From: Sedimentisphaerales bacterium
GTDB lineage: Bacteria > Planctomycetota > Phycisphaerae > Sedimentisphaerales > Anaerohalosphaeraceae
DNA: 37,288 bases
Assembly (NCBI GenBank): GCA_016926155.1
Contig: JAFGPC010000038.1
Coordinates: 1-37,288 of the forward strand
Direction: 5' to 3'
Part shown: positions 4,354-12,584 of the stretch, in pieces
Layout of the letters: each line of letters starts with the position of its first letter
Position numbering within the stretch: the stretch's first letter is position 1
The notes under the pieces: generated by a model
Databases searched by the model: none
Told to the model about the DNA's origin: nothing
What the model saw: only the letters and a program-made list of their open reading frames with translations
Translations under genes and position numbers: made by a program

Positions 4354-6210
4354 CTATTTTGTCATAGAAGCCTGCAGCACTTCCATAATCCATAACGTGT
4401 GTAATTCTCCTTGCGAGTCTAGCGATTGAGACACATAGGGGATTCGTACGGCATCCGGTCGTGGCTCATCGTGATAATGGAACTCTATTTGCCCTTCGAA
4501 TCCATTGCCTGTGATAGTAATCTCTTCCACAAGATCGCTCTGCAGACCGATTCTATATCCAAGTGAAATATCTTTCTCAGTGAGGATCACTTCCACAATC
4601 GCTTCGTCGATTCTTCTTGTTGAAAAGGGAATTTGATACAATGCCGCATCACGACGAACCATGTCGATTGTATGCAATCCCATCCAGGGACGCGACAGTC
4701 CCCGAAGCAGACTGCCGGGTGATAACGCTAGGCTTGATCCTGTTTCATCACGCAGGTATCCCCATTGCGGTGTATCCACTAGATAGAGATCCCCGATATG
4801 GATCTGCAGCCAGGCAGGATGCCGATTTTTCATAGCATATAGGAATGGAATCTGTCCATAGCCGGATACATCTTTACCAGCCACCTGCCCAGTAATATTG
4901 AAGGTTGTCCAGCCGCGTTGATGCATTTTATCCCGCCGATCTACAACAGGTGTCCCGGCCGGCCAGACAAACTGGAAATATTCCTCTTCCAGGATATTTT
5001 CATGACGGGCCACCTGGGTAATGTCGGACTCCCGTGCGTCATGGGAAGCAATAACCAGCAGACCGTCACGACGCATCGGCAGGAATTGGGCGGGTTTGGG
5101 TTGCCCGGTCAATCCTTGAGCCTGGTTTAAAAATGTCTGGAAGGTAGGTGGGTCGGTCGGCAACTGCATCACCGAGAGATCTTCATTATACCATCTCCAG
5201 TTGTCCTGATAGAGTATTTCTCTTCGAACATCATAATGGTAATTCACCAACTCATTCTGCAATGCGACACAAGCTTCCCGACCGGCTGAGTCTTGTACGG
5301 TCTGACGCAACATGACCGCCCCACCCGGTCCATCCGGAAAAAAGTACCAGGACTGATCCGGCTCCGCCTTTATCGTTTTGATAGGGGCTGTCGTTCTAAT
5401 CGGGATATTCGGTTCTATCACAGTTGCACCATTTGAAATATCCGACGAGGGATGATTCATTACCACCCCAGTACCGATGACCCCGGCAGTCATGACAGTC
5501 ACAGCGGCTCCTTTGCTTAGAACTGTTGCGGCCACAGCCGCCCCCAGACCTACCTGCGTTGCGGCTGCCGAGATGGTTAACTGTGCGGCCGCCACCTCCG
5601 ATGAGGCTGTCATTTTCCCGAACATGACCAGCACCATCATCAGGGCCCCCTTGCCCAGGCCCTCTTTGGACAATTGTTTTCGCAGGGCCCGCTTGGCCCG
5701 CAAAAACAACATCTGCGCTGCGAACTGATTACAGTTCAATACCTCGGCGATCTCCGCGTAACTCATCTCTTCATAACATCGCATACTCAAAATGGCCCGG
5801 TGCCGTGGCTTGAGCCCCTGCATCGCACGGGAAATGATTTGCCGCAGTTCCTGGCTCAGCAGGTTTTCCAGGCCCTGCTGCTGTTCTTGAGACACCCCTC
5901 CGAAGCCAATTTCCTCGATCCGCGGACCGTTGTGTTTTCGCTCGTTGCGGTGATGACGATGAAGCTTGTTAGTGGCGATGCCGTAGAGCCACGGCCAGAA
6001 CTTGTCTGCCTGCTTGAGCTTGCCGATGATCCGCAGCATCTCCAGGATGCTCTCCTGTACGATATCGGCCGTCAGGTCCTCCTGGAGGGTCATACGGTAA
6101 ACGTGGCTTCTCAGCCGAGGTGTAGCGATCTCAGCAAGCCTGTGCAGGGATTCGGTGTTGCCCGATTGGGCTTGGCGAATCAACAGGATGGTATCGGTCG
6201 TTTTCGACAT
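4354..6210 (-). CDS. ECF-type sigma factor fused to a hydrophobic region and a large extracytoplasmic domain
   Basis: The 618-residue protein begins with sigma-70 region 2 (about 15-95, with DLTADIVQESILEMLR and FWPWLYGIATNKLHRHHR). Region 4 follows at about 120-180 (LKPRHRAILSMRCYEEMSYA plus a helix-turn-helix). It should direct RNA polymerase to a small regulon. An Ala/Gly-rich hydrophobic stretch (about 187-251) could cross the membrane once or twice. The last 365 residues, rich in Trp and Pro, match no domain I recognise and would lie outside the membrane. Ordinary ECF factors are about 200 residues and rely on a separate anti-sigma factor. None is seen here, so the fused part may do the sensing. 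The ATG at 6210 was chosen over a GTG at 6231 because it gives the usual region 2 N-terminus; neither has a strong ribosome site. The beta-helix gene follows at once. Confidence 0.85.
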   Translation of the reverse strand: MSKTTDTILLIRQAQSGNTESLHRLAEIATPRLRSHVYRMTLQEDLTADIVQESILEMLRIIGKLKQADKFWPWLYGIATNKLHRHHRNERKHNGPRIEEIGFGGVSQEQQQGLENLLSQELRQIISRAMQGLKPRHRAILSMRCYEEMSYAEIAEVLNCNQFAAQMLFLRAKRALRKQLSKEGLGKGALMMVLVMFGKMTASSEVAAAQLTISAAATQVGLGAAVAATVLSKGAAVTVMTAGVIGTGVVMNHPSSDISNGATVIEPNIPIRTTAPIKTIKAEPDQSWYFFPDGPGGAVMLRQTVQDSAGREACVALQNELVNYHYDVRREILYQDNWRWYNEDLSVMQLPTDPPTFQTFLNQAQGLTGQPKPAQFLPMRRDGLLVIASHDARESDITQVARHENILEEEYFQFVWPAGTPVVDRRDKMHQRGWTTFNITGQVAGKDVSGYGQIPFLYAMKNRHPAWLQIHIGDLYLVDTPQWGYLRDETGSSLALSPGSLLRGLSRPWMGLHTIDMVRRDAALYQIPFSTRRIDEAIVEVILTEKDISLGYRIGLQSDLVEEITITGNGFEGQIEFHYHDEPRPDAVRIPYVSQSLDSQGELHTLWIMEVLQASMTK

Positions 6211-6298
6211 AAGTCTATACTCTAGTGCCACTCGGAAAGATCAATACCACGGTTTTTCTGCGTTAAATATAATTATATCGTAAAATTACCACATTTTT

Positions 6299-6501: not shown

Positions 6502-7302
6502 CTACTGTTGAATATGGAAAAGGAGGCGGCAAAGACTGGAAACCATGAAGATCAAAGCGCTTACAATGACCGTACAAGCTCCTGTGGGAAGGTTGAGGTA
6601 GTAGGAAACTAAAAAACCAAGCAGGGTAGACAAAATGCCAAAACCAATCGCCGCAATAACGACCGCTTTATAGCCACGGCAAACCTGATAAGCCGCCGCG
6701 GCCGGACAAACCAGCAAACTGAACAGCAACAATCCCCCCACTGCTTTCAGGTTGATTGCCAGAATCAATCCACAAAAACAGAGGAACAGACAATAGACGA
6801 AATTGGTATACAGGCTTGTGGCTGCCGCAAGAGAACGACTGAATAAAATCGCCTGTAATTCCTTGTTGAATAATAACACAAAAAGCCCCAGAAAAAAAGT
6901 AACAACACCGGTAACCAGAACGGTATTCCAGTCGGCAAAAAGAATATTTCCCCAAAGTAAGGATAATATCTCAGCCCGACTGTCTTGCTCCAGCCCCACT
7001 GCGAGAAAGACAAGTCCCATCATAAGCGACAGAAGAATGGCCTGGCCGCTGTTGGCATCCAGGTTTTTCCGGTTTGACGGAACAAACGCTACTCCCGCGG
7101 AACCAACCATAGACAGTAACAGAGCGCCCAAGGTCGGACTTACGTTCATCAGCGAAGCGTAGACAGCTCCAACCATTGCCGAGTGAGAGATACATACCCC
7201 AATAAACGGCATACGCATCCCTACAATAAATACGCCCAATAGACCGATGCCAATCCCCGCAAAAGCCGCTGTGATCATAATTGGAACAAAGAAGGTATCC
7301 AT
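6502..7302 (-). CDS. Zinc/manganese-type ABC transporter permease (ABC-3 family)
   Basis: This 266-residue, strongly hydrophobic protein has about seven to eight predicted membrane spans. It shows the family pattern of ZnuB/MntB/TroC permeases, including PFIGVCISHSAMVGAVYA near the N-terminus and KAVGGLLLFSLLVCPAAAAY in the second half. It would form the membrane channel of a high-affinity metal importer with the ATPase and binding protein encoded just upstream. It starts four bases after the ATPase stop, consistent with translational coupling. Sequence alone does not separate zinc from manganese or iron. Zinc is favoured by the general ZnuABC resemblance, so I give no gene symbol. Confidence 0.9.
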   Translation of the reverse strand: MDTFFVPIMITAAFAGIGIGLLGVFIVGMRMPFIGVCISHSAMVGAVYASLMNVSPTLGALLLSMVGSAGVAFVPSNRKNLDANSGQAILLSLMMGLVFLAVGLEQDSRAEILSLLWGNILFADWNTVLVTGVVTFFLGLFVLLFNKELQAILFSRSLAAATSLYTNFVYCLFLCFCGLILAINLKAVGGLLLFSLLVCPAAAAYQVCRGYKAVVIAAIGFGILSTLLGFLVSYYLNLPTGACTVIVSALIFMVSSLCRLLFHIQQ

Positions 7303-7306
7303 AAAT

Positions 7307-8065
7307 TCAAACCGGCTCCTCTAAGTCGGATGGAAACCAAATCCGGCGGGCAATCGTGGAATTAATAATCTGCTCTCGAAGGCCATCGGCAACGATTCGT
7401 CCCCTGTCAAGAAGGACCAGCCGTTGACAGGAAGTTGGAATCAGGTCCACCTCGTGGGATATCAATATAATGGTGATCGAATTCTCTTCAAAAAGGCAGT
7501 CTATGATCTCCCGAAGTTGTCGTTTCCATTTTGGATCCAGGTTGGCTCCGGGTTCATCCATAAAAATGAAATGAGGTTCGGCCGTCATGGCACGGGCGAT
7601 CAAGGTTTTCTGCTGCTGACCGCCGGATAGCGAGCGAAAGGTCTGGTGTCGACGCTCATACAGCCCCATCCGTTCGATCCAAAAATCCACCCGTTCATAA
7701 TCCGTTTGATTCAGTGGGTGAAGAAACGGCTTCAATCCGTTTCGCCCCATGGCCACAACTTCCCGCACTGTAAACGGCAAATGAGCGTTGTATTCATTCT
7801 GCTGAGGGATATAGCCAATGTGTCTGCGATACCGAGCTAAACCCAATAGATCATATCTGGATATTCGCTGATTGTTAAGGTGCACTACCCCCTGATTGGG
7901 TCGGATTAAACCGCAACTCAGTTTTAAAAATGTGGTTTTACCGGCACCATTAGGTCCGATCAGACCAACGAATTGACCTGCAGGTATGGCCAAATGTTCG
8001 ATTTGCAGGATCTTACACTGACCACGCTTGATACATATATTCGACAATGTAATGGCGTTTTCCAT
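7307..8065 (-). CDS. Zinc/manganese-type ABC transporter ATP-binding protein
   Basis: This is a complete ABC ATPase of 252 residues. Walker A is GPNGAGKTT (37-45), the Q-loop is near 88-89 (IPQQN), the signature is LSGGQ (146-150), Walker B is FIFMDE (166-171) and the H-loop histidine is 204 (LISHEVD). Length and pattern fit the ZnuC/MntA group, which energises metal import through the membrane-embedded permease. It lies three bases after the binding-protein gene and four before the permease gene, so the three cistrons almost certainly form one transporter. Confidence 0.92.
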   Translation of the reverse strand: MENAITLSNICIKRGQCKILQIEHLAIPAGQFVGLIGPNGAGKTTFLKLSCGLIRPNQGVVHLNNQRISRYDLLGLARYRRHIGYIPQQNEYNAHLPFTVREVVAMGRNGLKPFLHPLNQTDYERVDFWIERMGLYERRHQTFRSLSGGQQQKTLIARAMTAEPHFIFMDEPGANLDPKWKRQLREIIDCLFEENSITIILISHEVDLIPTSCQRLVLLDRGRIVADGLREQIINSTIARRIWFPSDLEEPV

Positions 8066-8068
8066 ACC

Positions 8069-8899
8069 TCACATATGCTGTGCCAACAACTGATCCAGAT
8101 TAAACTCCAACAGTTGTTCAAATGCATTTTCATGATACTCTATCGTATCCGGGAAATTGCTGAACACCACCAGTCTGCCGTTGAGATGTTGGGCGATGTT
8201 TCGAGGTAGTTCCGTACCCTCCTGAGCATTGGCAATTACAATCTGTACCTCCTTTTCACGAGCCAAACGAAGGCATGATTCAATTTCCGAGGGTGTCATG
8301 ACCTCAGCGCTGCGAAAGGTGGCCACAACTTCCAGACCAAGCCATCGGACAAAATCGGCCTGATGGTGCGATGCGATTACACTGACACCAAGCATATCCG
8401 ATTCTTTAACACGTATATGTATCCGATCCGAGATTTCGGCAAGTCGGCGTTCCAAATGGCGATAGTTCTCCTGGCAATCTTGCGATCGGCCCGGTACATG
8501 TTTCTCTAAAAATGGAACAATTTCTCGACAAGCTTCCAGATAAGTCTGGGGAATACACATTCCCGAACGGCCTGTAATCGATATAATCGGGCCGTTGATG
8601 CGATTTAATTTTTCATCCAATCCCGCCTGAAAATCAAAACGAAACAGGATTTTACTATCGAGTAATGAACGGATCTGCTCCGGTGACAAATCAAAATGTC
8701 CGGGACACATTCCGGGTGGAGCCAGACAAAAAACTTCTGTCGCTCCACACAAATCTCTTATGGCCGACTGTAAATAGGTATTGGTTACCGAAATCTCAGC
8801 GGCTGGATACGAATCCTGTTTTGTACGACAACCAATAACCAATACAAGATAAACAAAAATAAAACTCCAAAGGATTCTTCGGATCATTCTGTAACTCAT
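8069..8899 (-). CDS. Metal-binding lipoprotein of the ABC importer (ZnuA/TroA family)
   Basis: The protein has 276 residues. A short basic N-terminus and hydrophobic segment end in the lipobox VIGC (Cys24), so it should be a lipid-anchored extracytoplasmic receptor. CPGHFD places the likely first metal ligand at His68. SHHQADFVRWLGLE gives His178/His179 in the family's second-lobe motif, and Glu227 (NAQEG) is a candidate fourth ligand. The usual 'PHxW' histidine in between is not evident; that region reads SGMCIP with Cys115. The acidic/His-rich loop of classical ZnuA is absent. The ATG overlaps the stop of the preceding pseudopilin gene by four bases (ATGA), which indicates coupled translation. 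Confidence 0.88.
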   Translation of the reverse strand: MSYRMIRRILWSFIFVYLVLVIGCRTKQDSYPAAEISVTNTYLQSAIRDLCGATEVFCLAPPGMCPGHFDLSPEQIRSLLDSKILFRFDFQAGLDEKLNRINGPIISITGRSGMCIPQTYLEACREIVPFLEKHVPGRSQDCQENYRHLERRLAEISDRIHIRVKESDMLGVSVIASHHQADFVRWLGLEVVATFRSAEVMTPSEIESCLRLAREKEVQIVIANAQEGTELPRNIAQHLNGRLVVFSNFPDTIEYHENAFEQLLEFNLDQLLAQHM

Positions 8900-9549
8900 G
8901 GCGCACCTTCAAAGGTGCCTATATGTCTACCCTGTCGTAATCGCATTCTTACAATCAGCCCCTTTTGTTTTTCTGCCGAATACCAGGTCCGCTTAGGAAC
9001 CGGCCCGTGGAGTTCCTTTAATGTCTCCCATTCATCATAAGCAGGGCCCTGGCTGTATATAATCCACGTTACAGGCGAGACTGCAGGATCATCGAATAAC
9101 CGGTCCTCTTCCGGTGGACCCTCTCCCGCTGGAAATCCCGGCGGGATATAGAGAGAGGCTTTGATATACGGCATATATCGGTTGTTCTGGTACAACTGCC
9201 CCACGGACCAGTACTTATAGGTATTCTTCGGATGGAATCGATCCTCCATTCGGGCTGACATCCCGCTTTCCTGCGATGGGGCGGGCAGATAACCGCATTC
9301 CACCAGTTCAGGGGGTAATTGATGGTCTTCCCATCCCATGGAGCAATCCTTTCTGGTGGGAGGGTGCTTGCCGTCGTGTTCATTCATATACATTTCCAGG
9401 CTCAGACCGATTTGATACAAATCCGAGTTAACGGCTACGATTTTGGTTTGCTGTTTTGCCCGCGATAAAGAAGGCGCCAATATGGCAAGCAGCAACACAA
9501 GAACCGCAATCACAATCAAAAACTCAATTAATGTAAATGCTTTCTTCAT
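8896..9549 (-). CDS. Pseudopilin-like protein within the metal transporter operon
   Basis: This 217-residue protein opens with MKKAFTLIEFLIVIAVLVLL, a prepilin leader with Ala rather than Gly at the cleavage position, Glu at +5, and one hydrophobic helix. The rest is soluble and rich in Pro, Tyr and charged residues. It looks like the small 'type II secretion system protein' pseudopilins abundant in Planctomycetota. It starts six bases after the stop of the half-dockerin protein and overlaps the binding-lipoprotein gene by four bases, so it is an integral part of the operon. A role in surface display or trafficking of the neighbouring secreted protein is possible but unproven. Confidence 0.82.
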   Translation of the reverse strand: MKKAFTLIEFLIVIAVLVLLLAILAPSLSRAKQQTKIVAVNSDLYQIGLSLEMYMNEHDGKHPPTRKDCSMGWEDHQLPPELVECGYLPAPSQESGMSARMEDRFHPKNTYKYWSVGQLYQNNRYMPYIKASLYIPPGFPAGEGPPEEDRLFDDPAVSPVTWIIYSQGPAYDEWETLKELHGPVPKRTWYSAEKQKGLIVRMRLRQGRHIGTFEGAP

Positions 9550-9555
9550 TGTCTA

Positions 9556-10587
9556 TTAAAAGCAGTCGCACAATCTGGCCCTGGAGATCATCCAGTGTTC
9601 AGCCAATTCCGCCAAATCGACAAGATTTACAACAAAATCATGGTTGATATCACCGGGCAGATTTCCCCGAACCGATCCGCTTTCTCCCAAAACCAGACCA
9701 TTGCCGTCATAATCCAAAACCAATAGACGGTATCCTTTGGTAAGATCGGCAGGATATCCCGGGGCTTTTTGATCCATGATCCCTATCACGTCAATGGTGC
9801 CGGTTGGGCATTCGTATCGAGCGATTCCCTCGCCCAGGGCAAGGACAACCGGGAATGTACGCCCCTGTCCGTCAGTTACCGTAATGGTTGTATTGGGAGC
9901 CCAGTTTTCAGGATCAACAATAGAAACCCGGTTGATTCGCACTCGACGAGACTGGTAATACTCACCTCCCGTCAGCCGGGCCGGATCGAAAATTTCGGTA
10001 TCGTCGGCGTGTTTCAAATCGGCCAGAGTAATTTCCTCCGGTTGAGGCAGTCCAACAGACGGTTTGATCAATTCCAACTTAAAATCAAACATGGAATCAG
10101 TCTGGTGATTTTCATTAACATTCAGCTTGCCTCCGTAAAAAAGATAGGTTCCGGTGACGCGAACGCGATCTCCGGCTCGGAAGATATAAGCCGTATTCGG
10201 ATCACGGTTCAACCGACAGATCTCCGCCAACCACTCTTCATTGGAATAGCTATCGCTTCCCGGTCCATTACCATAGTTTTGTCCCATCCAACAGAATGTA
10301 CCGGCATGATCATCACCTTCCCCTTGAATCACGATTTCCCACTCCCCTCCCATGAACCAGGGAGAAACTGTAGGATCAGGAGTGGGATCGAGCCATTGTT
10401 CGGGATTGTTCAGGAGAATCCCCTCCAATATCACCTGCCATGGTCCGTTGTCATCAAAGGAGCTTGTGCCATCGGTATGGACGGCCTGAAACTGCCAATG
10501 AGTAACTTCAACAGGTTGATCCGCAAACACCATTTGATAGAAGCTAAAAATTACAAGAAATAGAACAATAAGTCCCCTTTTCATCAT
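9556..10587 (-). CDS. Secreted protein with OB-fold-like regions and a C-terminal half-dockerin motif
   Basis: About 343 residues with a signal peptide (cut near Ala22). A middle region has RVRVTGTYLFYGGKLNVNE. A second region has ITLADLKHADD, then RVRINRVSI, TVTDGQGRTFPVVL and GTIDVIGIMDQ, resembling OB-fold domains of secreted proteins. A lone dockerin-like calcium-loop motif (GDINHD...LVDLAELAEHW, 312-332) is followed by a Cys-rich tail (LCDCF). No enzyme active site was recognised. It is the first gene of the transporter operon. ATGs at 10587 and 10584 follow GGAGG closely; the ATG at 10596 contains that site and is less likely. Its position suggests that it acts at the cell surface under metal limitation, which is inference. 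Confidence 0.78.
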   Translation of the reverse strand: MMKRGLIVLFLVIFSFYQMVFADQPVEVTHWQFQAVHTDGTSSFDDNGPWQVILEGILLNNPEQWLDPTPDPTVSPWFMGGEWEIVIQGEGDDHAGTFCWMGQNYGNGPGSDSYSNEEWLAEICRLNRDPNTAYIFRAGDRVRVTGTYLFYGGKLNVNENHQTDSMFDFKLELIKPSVGLPQPEEITLADLKHADDTEIFDPARLTGGEYYQSRRVRINRVSIVDPENWAPNTTITVTDGQGRTFPVVLALGEGIARYECPTGTIDVIGIMDQKAPGYPADLTKGYRLLVLDYDGNGLVLGESGSVRGNLPGDINHDFVVNLVDLAELAEHWMISRARLCDCF

Positions 10588-10640
10588 TGCCTCCATAAAT
10601 CATTTTTTTATTTTGACATCGGACATGAACAATGCTAATA

Positions 10641-10660
10641 AATATTATGCGCATAAAATT
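10641..10660. promoter_or_regulatory. Near-perfect palindrome over the metal transporter promoter (operator candidate)
   Basis: AATATTATGC/GCATAAAATT is a 20-base inverted repeat with 9 of 10 positions paired and a perfect 12-base core (TTATGCGCATAA). It overlaps the predicted -10 box and start point of the 9556-10587 operon, where a repressor would block transcription. A smaller palindrome, CGTATTACG (10669-10677), sits in the promoter spacer. Its sequence differs from the palindromes at 11225-11271, so it need not bind the same regulator. Confidence 0.5.
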
Positions 10661-10684
10661 ATTAAAATCGTATTACGTTGTCAA
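10656..10684 (-). promoter_or_regulatory. Predicted promoter of the metal transporter operon
   Basis: On the minus strand a perfect -35 box TTGACA (10684-10679) is followed after 17 bases by TAATTT (10661-10656). The start is expected near 10649, inside the palindrome at 10641-10660, giving a leader of about 60 bases before the ATG at 10587. Confidence 0.5.
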
Positions 10685-10762: not shown

Positions 10763-11107
10763 ATGGAAAACACGCCGTTATTGCTAACATTGAAGGATAA
10801 TGACGAATACCAACCGCTACTGGAAGGAAAACCGGCCACGCAGGGAATGCGGTCCGGGAGGGTGGTTTTGAAAAAGGGAGAAAATTGTGGTGAGCATTCG
10901 ACAGGCGCTCATGAAGAGCAACTGGTTTTTCTGTCCGGAAGCGGGACGGCTTTTTTAGGCAACGAGAAAAAAGAGAGCAAAGTGAATAAAGGAAATATCC
11001 TTTACATTCCTCCCTTTACACTTCACGACATCCATAATACGGCTTCCGAACTACTTACTTATATTTATTGTGTAGCTCCTGTTGCTATTGATGAGCCACA
11101 GAAATGA
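10763..11107 (+). CDS. Small single-domain cupin protein
   Basis: A 114-residue protein with one cupin barrel. Motif 1 reads H45..H50-E51-E52..G59 (CGEHSTGAHEEQLVFLSG) and motif 2 reads G77 NILYIPPFTLHDIHN with His88 and His91. These are likely metal ligands of a Cupin_2-type fold. Such proteins act as small enzymes or sensors, and the substrate cannot be told from sequence. It lies divergently from the metal transporter operon, sharing a 175-base gap, and upstream of the His-rich membrane protein gene. AGAGG stands about eight bases before the ATG. A link to metal homeostasis is suggested only by position. Confidence 0.82.
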   Translation: MENTPLLLTLKDNDEYQPLLEGKPATQGMRSGRVVLKKGENCGEHSTGAHEEQLVFLSGSGTAFLGNEKKESKVNKGNILYIPPFTLHDIHNTASELLTYIYCVAPVAIDEPQK

Positions 11108-11352: not shown

Positions 11353-12159
11353 TTGTTGATCACTGACAAGATCCGACAGATCGGACGGGAAATGAGGATC
11401 CATGCGCCGTTTACGGTCCTTGGAGCCGTAACGGGGATCGCCTTCATGTTCGTCTTTGGATATCTGTATCAAGGCCATACGTCAGTTCTATTTGCCGTCT
11501 TTCACCCCGCCCATGTAGTTCTTTCGGCGATGGTAACGGCATCCTTGTTCAAACTGCATCGTAAGGCCAAAGATTTCATTCGTATCCTGCTGATCGGTTA
11601 CTTTGGCTCGATTGGAGTGGCTACGCTGAGCGACTGCGTTATCCCCTTCTTCGGCGAGAGTATTCTTGGAGTTGCGGTTCCCACACACACCGTGCTTCAT
11701 GAAAAAGCGAACGAATCCGAAGAAAACTTGTATACCGAGGAACAAGCGGATCATAATCCGGCACCGACGGGTGCCGATCATGCTCATGAGGACCATACCG
11801 ACAGAAAGCCGCATCTGCACCTGGGTTTCATTGAAGAGTGGTATCTGGTCAATCCGGCTGCCGTTCTGGGCGTGCTAATTGCATATTTTCTTCCACGAAC
11901 GAAATATCCTCACGCATTGCATGTACTGATCAGCACATGGGCCTCCTCGGCACACATCCTCATGAATACGCAGGCCGATATCACTGTGACATTGCTTTCC
12001 GGAATGTTTATTGTTCTGTTTATCTCCGTCTGGCTACCCTGCTGTATCAGCGACATTGTTTTTCCCATGCTGTTTGTCGATGCAACAGCAGATCACAGTC
12101 ATTGCTGGTTGTGTCACGATCCTACAAAGGACACCAAAGAGACAGGAGCCGAGTCATGA
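11353..12159 (+). CDS. Six-helix membrane protein with His-rich loop, probable metal-related transporter (unrecognised family)
   Basis: 268 residues with predicted spans near 19-38, 42-66, 76-98, 164-180, 188-204 and 210-242. Between spans 3 and 4 a hydrophilic loop (112-156) has eight histidines (ADHAHEDHTDRKPHLHLG). The C-terminus ends in an HSHCWLCHD cluster. Buried His51, His54, His187, His190, His201 and Asp94 could line a metal path. I do not recognise the family. Loop and tail resemble those of zinc, nickel or cobalt transporters, but this is analogy. The start is TTG at 11353, supported by AGGAG eight bases upstream. Its stop overlaps the start of the Fur-family gene (ATGA), so the two are translated together. 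Import, export or storage cannot be decided here. Confidence 0.75.
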   Translation: MLITDKIRQIGREMRIHAPFTVLGAVTGIAFMFVFGYLYQGHTSVLFAVFHPAHVVLSAMVTASLFKLHRKAKDFIRILLIGYFGSIGVATLSDCVIPFFGESILGVAVPTHTVLHEKANESEENLYTEEQADHNPAPTGADHAHEDHTDRKPHLHLGFIEEWYLVNPAAVLGVLIAYFLPRTKYPHALHVLISTWASSAHILMNTQADITVTLLSGMFIVLFISVWLPCCISDIVFPMLFVDATADHSHCWLCHDPTKDTKETGAES

Positions 12160-12584
12160 GCCGGTCGGGAGAACAGACAGCCCTTTCACTGCTGGAAGAG
12201 GCCTCCCTTCGGCGTACAAAACCGCGACTGCTGGTGCTTCAAAGCCTTCTTGCGGCTTCACAGCCGGTGACACAGGAGCAGATCGCCGAGCAGCTTGGCG
12301 ACAAGACGCCCAATAAAGTGACAATCTATCGGACATTGGAGGCGCTGTGCGAGGCTGGACTAGTACACAAGGCGTTTCTGCAGGATCGGACGTGGCATTT
12401 CGAACTGGCCCACAATTGCAGCGAGCACCAATGCCATCCACACTTTACCTGTACTGCCTGCGGACAGACCACCTGCCTGATGGATATGCAGGTCCCTGCC
12501 GTGAAATCCTCACACAATGGCTACACTATCCAGCGTCAGCGGATGCAATTGGAGGGTCTGTGCCCGCAATGCGGCCAAAGATAA
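12156..12584 (+). CDS. Fur-family metal-responsive transcriptional repressor (Zur-like)
   Basis: 142 residues. The N-terminal winged helix (about 15-75) includes TPNKVTIYRTLEALCEAGLV, the Fur DNA-recognition helix region. The dimerisation domain has a histidine-rich metal site (His81, His86, His91, His94, His96) and two structural zinc pairs, C99-x2-C102 and C136-x2-C139. The HFTCTACGQTTCL pattern is closer to Zur-like members than to classical iron-sensing Fur, but metal specificity is not proven. AGGAG lies seven bases before the ATG, and the start overlaps the stop of the membrane protein gene. The tandem palindromes at 11225-11271 are the obvious binding sites for autorepression. Confidence 0.9.
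   Translation: MSRSGEQTALSLLEEASLRRTKPRLLVLQSLLAASQPVTQEQIAEQLGDKTPNKVTIYRTLEALCEAGLVHKAFLQDRTWHFELAHNCSEHQCHPHFTCTACGQTTCLMDMQVPAVKSSHNGYTIQRQRMQLEGLCPQCGQR

Follow-up and report, generated by a model that had tools for sequence, protein, structure and literature searches.

A probable NikR-repressed nickel-acquisition gene array with a pseudopilin and a secreted tandem OB-fold protein in Phycisphaerae

Metal importers of cluster A-I (ZnuABC, TroABC and PsaABC) are built from a TroA-type lipoprotein, an ABC-3 permease and an ATPase of the ATP-binding cassette (ABC) type, and in the anchored-repeat ABC transporter system (TIGR03769-TIGR03773) an importer of this cluster is linked to a surface protein. 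The same three importer components are found in the window analyzed here, a stretch of 37,288 nucleotides (contig JAFGPC010000038.1) from the 5.0-Mb, 222-contig draft genome of a Sedimentisphaerales bacterium. There, an array of five genes encodes a secreted protein with two OB folds, a pseudopilin, a substrate-binding protein (SBP), an ATPase and a permease. Unlike ZnuABC, TroABC and PsaABC, the array has a NikR-type operator, includes the pseudopilin and the OB protein in the putative operon, and encodes an SBP whose putative ligands (CPGHFD, GxC, SxHQ) are shifted in position and differ in kind. It also falls below the anchored-repeat models TIGR03770 (64.8 bits, with 296.8 required) and TIGR03771 (138.8 bits, with 268.8 required).

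Uptake systems regulated by NikR, namely NikABCDE and the NikMNQO/NikKMLQO systems of delta-proteobacteria, have in common with the loci studied here, as described in the consulted part of the source, a NikR gene nearby (in many relatives of the window), an operator 27-28 bp long that has GTAACAC as a half-site, and CbiM-type genes behind the element (PMC545781). They differ in that the importer here is of another ABC family than NikABCDE or the energy-coupling factor (ECF) systems, the right half of the operator reads TATGCGC and envelope proteins are added. The znu cluster of Corynebacterium diphtheriae (ZnuE, ZnuF, ZnuG) likewise combines an ABC importer with membrane or cell-wall metal proteins, though its metal is zinc and its abstract names no pilin or OB protein (PMC12445094). 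A 2009 survey of the known nickel and cobalt transporter families listed, in the part consulted, no member for its three planctomycete genomes (PMC2667541), and the module described here is a candidate to fill part of that gap. Among the titles and abstract openings listed by our searches of the open-access literature, we found nothing joining a pseudopilin or an OB protein to nickel uptake, and nothing joining NikR to a ZnuABC-type importer.

We regard the unit as probably a NikR-repressed nickel-acquisition system. The metal is probably nickel, perhaps nickel and cobalt, and not zinc, because NikR genes neighbour the module in many relatives, NikR-type operators precede it, CbiM and OprB genes stand behind the same element, and FmdE-type genes replace the ABC genes in some loci.

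A conserved array, its proposed operator and NikR

The five genes run from 10587 to 6502 on the minus strand with gaps, in order, of 6, -4, 3 and 4 bases, the negative value being the ATGA overlap (8896-8899) of the pseudopilin and SBP genes; the open frame of the OB gene begins 9 bases before the ATG at 10587. This bears out, in coordinates and layout, the initial annotation of five closely packed genes with small gaps or an ATGA overlap. Its reading of a metal ABC importer with two exported partners in one array likewise held, the matches being to PF01297 (SBP, 59.7 bits), PF00950 (permease, 157.8 bits), PF00005 (ATPase, 101.1 bits), all above cut-off, and TIGR02532 (pseudopilin). The spacing of the genes suggests that all five are co-transcribed.

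Conservation was examined in 59 genomes, comprising the own genome and others of the same family and order, and in an overlapping scan of named genomes that gave at least 80 loci. The named loci are mostly from Phycisphaerae, with a few labelled Planctomycetales, Verrucomicrobia or others, some of which are perhaps binning errors. A full-length homologue of the OB protein was present in 25 of the 59 genomes, own included (E 1e-68 or better), the weaker matches covering chiefly the tail, and the best homologue of the pilin adjoins the OB gene in 25 of 25 of these module genomes (in G047 a separate contig is involved and a contig end cuts the gene). The pairing was equally regular among the listed named loci with more than 900 bp downstream (70 of 72); in the two misses, L300 and L301, a pilin-labelled frame overlaps the OB frame beyond the overlap limit used. 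The homologues share 28-71% identity with the window's proteins. The gene order recurs, and the first refuting outcome named with the initial annotation, an order that is not conserved, did not occur, though the ABC genes stand behind the pair, in the order OB-pilin-SBP-ATPase, in only 14 of the 25 module genomes. The contig of G018 stops short of the permease, the pilin and SBP genes of G056 are separated by a gene of 700 residues, and G058 carries its ABC genes on another contig. Behind the pair, the 63 listed loci with more than 3 kb downstream have an SBP in 33 cases, an FmdE-type gene in 18, either in 47 and both in 4. The gene array is real and is present in many Phycisphaerae records.

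Two further features of these loci were seen. OB homologues L299, L300 and L302 come from records labelled Verrucomicrobiales, Verrucomicrobiia and Candidatus Nealsonbacteria, through transfer or binning error. At L089:9496-10950, directly behind the OB/pilin pair, a nucleoside-hydrolase domain is fused to FmdE (Pfam), and the same fusion was assigned by similarity behind the pair at L103:10999-12474 and elsewhere.

The element in front of the array was first recognised by eye and then tested by scans, a generic inverted-repeat scan of the promoters having found nothing in common. Most upstream regions share the form GTARYAC-N14-TATGCGC, often as a tandem pair, with the left half-site commonly behind TTGAC and the right half-site behind a -10-like hexamer. 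At spacing 14, 44 of the 76 upstream regions of listed named loci have an exact copy and 55 a copy with at most one mismatch; 12 other spacings (8 to 20) gave no exact copy and three near-matches, all at spacing 17, and shuffled upstream regions gave no match. A spacing-13 control in the own genome found no exact copy and, at two mismatches, 20 matches versus 38 for the reversed control. There are 32 exact copies in the 59 genomes, and 30 of the 31 inspected (30 plus that of the window, with the G043 copy left out) are no more than ~75 bases away from where an OB, pilin, CbiM or OprB gene starts. For four of those 30 (L202, L206 twice, L208) the likeness of the product to pilins is only general, and the exception, L225, is at a contig end with no labelled gene. 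The other exact copy of the own genome, on contig C24, is 42 bases from an OprB start in reversed orientation; a one-mismatch copy on C44 precedes CbiM, CbiQ and an ABC ATPase, and a further one inside a coding frame (L226) looks like chance.

One NikR box published for delta-proteobacteria is GTGTTAC-[N13/14]-GTAACAC, and Desulfotalea has it reversed, according to the consulted part of the source (PMC545781); the window's element is of the same length, with one half-site matching. A widened NikR-like pattern (GTRYYAC-N13/14-GTARYAC, at most one mismatch), used as a post hoc test, was found in 7 of the 21 upstream regions in which scoring had detected no element (L244 exactly) and in none of the 55 with it, the number expected from shuffles over all 76 regions being 0.18. 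In G041, G057, G053, G035 and G045 (L214, L215, L216, L217 and L219), one-mismatch copies of the element have the left half TTARCACG or ATAACACG, and a conserved product downstream begins near MEKARKLADILERV; the gene behind these copies is possibly another NikR target.

In many relatives a ribbon-helix-helix gene adjoins the pair, and the products of three representatives match NikR_C, with E 2.3e-27 for L089, where the ABC genes are lacking, and 6.4e-28 (L094) and 2.8e-30 (L109) for two loci that have them. NikR was found in 44 of the 59 genomes, in single copy wherever present; 16 of the 25 module genomes have it next to the module (under 1 kb away from the OB gene in 15, adjoining the pilin in G047), and in six, own included, it is elsewhere in the genome. 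The own NikR exceeds the cut-offs of PF08753, NF003381, NF002815, NF001884 and NF002169 and keeps H105, H116, H118 and C124, in the spacing (H-x10-H-x1-H-x5-C) at which E. coli NikR has its nickel ligands. In NikR family f2 (L092:12552-13031, L105:7582-8004), HVY is found versus HVH in the other five aligned, a change at one putative nickel ligand.

Further neighbours in some loci are CbiM (the substrate subunit of Ni/Co ECF transporters), an OprB porin and a histidine-rich membrane protein. In G049 (L202, 5013-10884), a different array begins with NikR, the element, a DUF1559 pilin and a secreted protein with a dockerin-like tail and continues with a Peripla_BP_2 SBP, a radical SAM protein, a FecCD permease and an ATPase. 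By analogy, this unrelated pilin/secreted-protein array supports the design of an envelope pair joined to an importer.

Table 1. Positions of the array, its putative control sites and the divergent cupin gene in the window
Feature	Position	Strand	Basis
Secreted tandem OB-fold protein, 343 aa	9556-10587	minus	ORF and ATG behind GGAGG
Dedicated pseudopilin, 217 aa, GspG-like fold, invariant Cys69 and Asp103	8896-9549	minus	TIGR02532 and model
TroA/ZnuA-type substrate-binding lipoprotein (SBP), 276 aa	8069-8899	minus	PF01297 above cut-off
ABC ATPase of importer	7307-8065	minus	PF00005, E 1e-28
ABC-3 family permease of importer	6502-7302	minus	PF00950, E 4.7e-46
GGAGG ribosome-binding site of 343-aa gene	10590-10594	minus	sequence reading
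NikR-type operator GTAATAC-N14-TATGCGC, 28 bp	10649-10676	minus	exact match in 59-genome scan
Putative -35 TTGACA, 6/6, starting 8 bases before operator	10679-10684	minus	sequence reading
Putative -10 TAATTT within operator, 17 bases behind -35	10656-10661	minus	sequence reading
Divergent single-domain cupin	10763-11107	plus	PF07883, 27.3 bits (cut-off 27.2)

The binding protein, the pseudopilin and the OB protein

The SBP matches the ZnuA domain (E 4.2e-16), and its profile matches manganese and zinc SBPs in the PDB (best E 2.6e-10). Its signature is PPGMCPGHFD ... GxC ... SxHQ ... ANxQEGT ... SNFP, with the first ligand motif CPGHFD in place of DPHEYE of manganese SBPs. The first-His motif canonical for ZnuA (PHxY) is also replaced, the His of CPGHFD standing one place later in 15 of 15 aligned proteins, and the last ligand region, SNFP, is without the canonical Asp/Glu of ZnuA. 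C65, H68, C115, H179 and E227 are invariant in the same 15 and are the putative metal ligands. When the SBP profile was run against 294 genomes of the phylum, drawn evenly, it matched in 32, seven of them at E <1e-50 (three outside the window's order); the remaining matches, at E 1.5e-11 or worse, are probably ordinary SBPs. If the nickel reading is true, cluster A-I would gain a branch of nickel importers.

The pseudopilin scores 22.6 bits with TIGR02532, the model of the prepilin N-terminal motif (cut-off 16.3), and falls slightly below the cut-off of PF07963 (20.9 versus 21.2 bits). In its structure model (predicted local distance difference test score, pLDDT, 93.8) the closest fold is GspG of Vibrio vulnificus (Z 7.8, root-mean-square deviation (rmsd) 2.6, 99 residues aligned); the Z score is middling, yet every listed fold match is a pilin or pseudopilin. 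Foldseek gave no match for this model at E 0.001. The protein thus shares its prepilin N-terminus and fold with GspG/PulG, the major pseudopilin of type II secretion, and differs from it in being sub-threshold for the GspG equivalog TIGR01710 (32.3 bits versus a cut-off of 88.85) and in having its gene next to those of an ABC importer. The two residues listed in Table 1 are kept in 58 of 58 homologues. The own genome encodes secretins (10 matches, nine above cut-off), so the cell probably has machinery for pili or secretion. Pilin-like genes number from 2 to at least 51 matches per genome, and we know of no role for most of those of these bacteria.

The 343-residue protein consists, in order, of a signal sequence, two OB folds and a dockerin-like tail. 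It had no Pfam or NCBIfam match up to E 0.1 and no match among PDB sequences up to E 1. Its AlphaFold model (mean pLDDT 92.9) resembles known OB folds over residues 25-177 (best Z 9.3, rmsd 2.7, 98 aligned) and 183-304 (best Z 8.8, rmsd 2.9, 90 aligned), and the only Foldseek match below 0.001 was the telomerase factor Teb1 (E 4.2e-4). The earlier label of OB-fold-like regions is therefore correct, as this high-confidence model matches OB folds in both regions. The accompanying label of a half-dockerin stands in part: a tail with the dockerin-like motif GDxNxDxxVxLxDxxxLAxxW exists, but it is not a PF00404 domain (no match at E 0.1, and the protein is not among the 17 dockerin matches of the own genome) and it is swappable among homologues. 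Inspection by eye found PEP-CTERM-like tails in five distant homologues (L278, L300, L302, L303 and L307) and no such tail in some others. The replacement of the dockerin-like tail in these five suggests that it serves localisation. A dockerin/cellulosome reading was rejected on the failure of PF00404 and on the PEP-CTERM-like or missing tails of the distant homologues. Polar residues kept in 65 of 65 homologues include D140, K154, H161, E209, Q212 and Q273, and the motif GKxNxNExH spans K154 to H161. That the protein captures metal at the cell surface, as was first proposed, is a guess.

Proposed mechanism and alternative readings

With ample nickel in the cytoplasm, Ni-NikR would occupy the 28-bp element, which overlaps the promoter, and so block transcription, whereas under scarcity NikR would be released and the five genes expressed together; repression is suggested by the position of the operator and the known action of NikR. 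In the periplasm, the lipoprotein SBP would bind free or chelated Ni(II) via its unusual ligand set and, as its family implies, hand nickel to the ATPase and permease for passage across the inner membrane. At the cell envelope, the pseudopilin and the OB protein would act upstream of the SBP. In the likeliest scheme, the pseudopilin would be assembled via the cell's general pilus/secretin machinery and would carry or display the OB protein; the latter would capture nickel or its chelate and deliver it across or at the outer membrane, and the OprB porin encoded behind the same element could admit either form. The analysis shows the array, its conservation, the fixed element, the linkage to NikR in relatives and the folds, whereas co-transcription, NikR binding, nickel as the substrate and an outer-envelope role of the pair are predictions.

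We tentatively extend this scheme to a TonB-independent machine, in which a dedicated pseudopilus exports or displays a nickel- or nickelophore-binding tandem-OB protein outside the outer membrane and returns the cargo to a TroA-type importer that is specific for nickel and has a new ligand set, the whole being controlled by NikR; in this full form, the proposal is possible but somewhat doubtful. The pilin/OB pair would then be a portable front end, with TroA-type ABC importers and FmdE proteins as its back ends, and in L202 an unrelated pair would join a FecCD-type importer to a comparable front end. The truly new part would be a pilin-borne OB protein as a nickel collector. One pilin family would be tied to one metal via regulator, operator and partners and, if this is true, one pilin-like protein among the many that are unexplained in these bacteria would have its first role.

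Several observations weigh against a NikR-repressed nickel operon. The single NikR gene of the own genome is on another contig (C121), not beside the module, and its product passes four of five NikR models, falling below the cut-off of TIGR02793. NikR was not found in 3 of the 25 module genomes (68, 89 and 84% complete), and it is within 2.5 kb in only 24 of the 64 listed named loci with more than 1.5 kb upstream. The association of the exact element with NikR is moderate (22 of 44 NikR-positive versus 2 of 15 NikR-negative genomes, p 0.012). The right half-site is no mirror of the left, and, of the 21 regions that scored negative for the element, 14 are also without the NikR-like repeat, although in one of these (L284) the element is present further in, outside the scored stretch. 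The putative -10 hexamer is weak (3/6 consensus bases) and the proposed promoter is absent from the promoter list of the consensus scan. That scan also gave 13 promoter-like matches in the region, several of them internal (8.1 +- 2.9 in shuffles), and 6 terminator-like matches (4.5 +- 2.0), with minus-strand ones within the OB, pilin, SBP and permease genes, which speaks weakly against co-transcription. Neither an SBP nor an FmdE-type gene is behind the pair in 16 of 63 listed loci, and the conserved histidines of the OB protein (H161 in 65 of 65 homologues, H30 in 60 of 65) form no classical metal cluster. CbiM models do not separate nickel from cobalt. As to FmdE, the consulted part of the structural report (PMC2954224) states, in favour of nickel, that most of the genes are near metal transporters and that one core structure held mixed Zn/Ni; by the methods described there, this protein was purified on a nickel column and may have taken up its nickel in that way. 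Also in favour, a [NiFe]-hydrogenase-type large subunit is encoded on contig 4 of the own genome (best stretch E 1e-42), while complex I subunits may account for many weaker hydrogenase-family matches in these genomes. Three module genomes (G037, G042 and G046) had no match to the NiFe-hydrogenase family, so hydrogenase cannot be the sole nickel consumer.

Among the alternatives, we consider it rather unlikely that the importer is nickel-specific and the pilin/OB pair has some other role at low nickel, such as attachment or secretion, the promoter merely being common to both. The usual jobs of pilins are adhesion and secretion, and the loci with neither an SBP nor an FmdE-type gene behind the pair would fit such a role. 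Against it, the pair keeps the element and NikR even without ABC genes (L089 and L092, for example), and a different pilin/secreted-protein pair is part of the NikR-linked FecCD-type array of L202. A role of pilins in metal uptake also has a parallel in PilA2, a type IV pilin of Legionella pneumophila that, according to the consulted part of the report, promotes iron assimilation independently of piliation (PMC13170364).

The zinc substrate implied by the initial annotation is not supported, given the NikR neighbours, the NikR-type operators and the CbiM/OprB and FmdE-type context, and an ordinary ZnuABC/TroABC-type importer of zinc (or manganese) with two exported helpers is, in our judgment, improbable. 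Membership in PF01297 and the ABC-3 family, the manganese- and zinc-binding proteins among the nearest solved SBPs and the Fur-family gene at 12153-12584 would all suit it, as would the surface zinc-binding proteins that accompany ZnuABC in C. diphtheriae in the abstract cited above (PMC12445094). The SBP ligand positions are unlike those of canonical SBPs, the Fur-family gene has no labelled homologue in 28 relative loci, and a better ZnuA match of the own genome is encoded on contig C195, which has no copy of the element at up to one mismatch.

Similarly improbable is the acquisition of cobalt (or of nickel and cobalt) for cobalamin, and not for nickel enzymes. The CbiM-type genes behind the same element do match cobalt-transporter models, all below curated cut-offs, but CbiM is not diagnostic of cobalt, and the linked regulator is NikR, with the H-x10-H-x1-H-x5-C spacing in the own copy. 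Finally, a chance neighbourhood in a genome rich in pilin-like and dockerin-tailed genes, for which the at least 51 pilin-like matches reached in one genome and the 17 dockerin matches of the own genome might speak, can be dismissed, because content and order recur in many species, with the pairing at 70 of 72 and 25 of 25 despite only 28-71% identity.

Around the array, a homologue of the divergent cupin is present in 16 of the 28 relative loci compared. Adjoining the cupin gene, at 11353-12584, are a histidine-rich membrane protein gene and the overlapping Fur-family gene, and neither had a labelled homologue in those 28 loci. On the other side of the array, a 625-residue frame at 4354-6231 has a large C-terminal extension without a Pfam match, preceded by an N-terminal extracytoplasmic function-type sigma factor.

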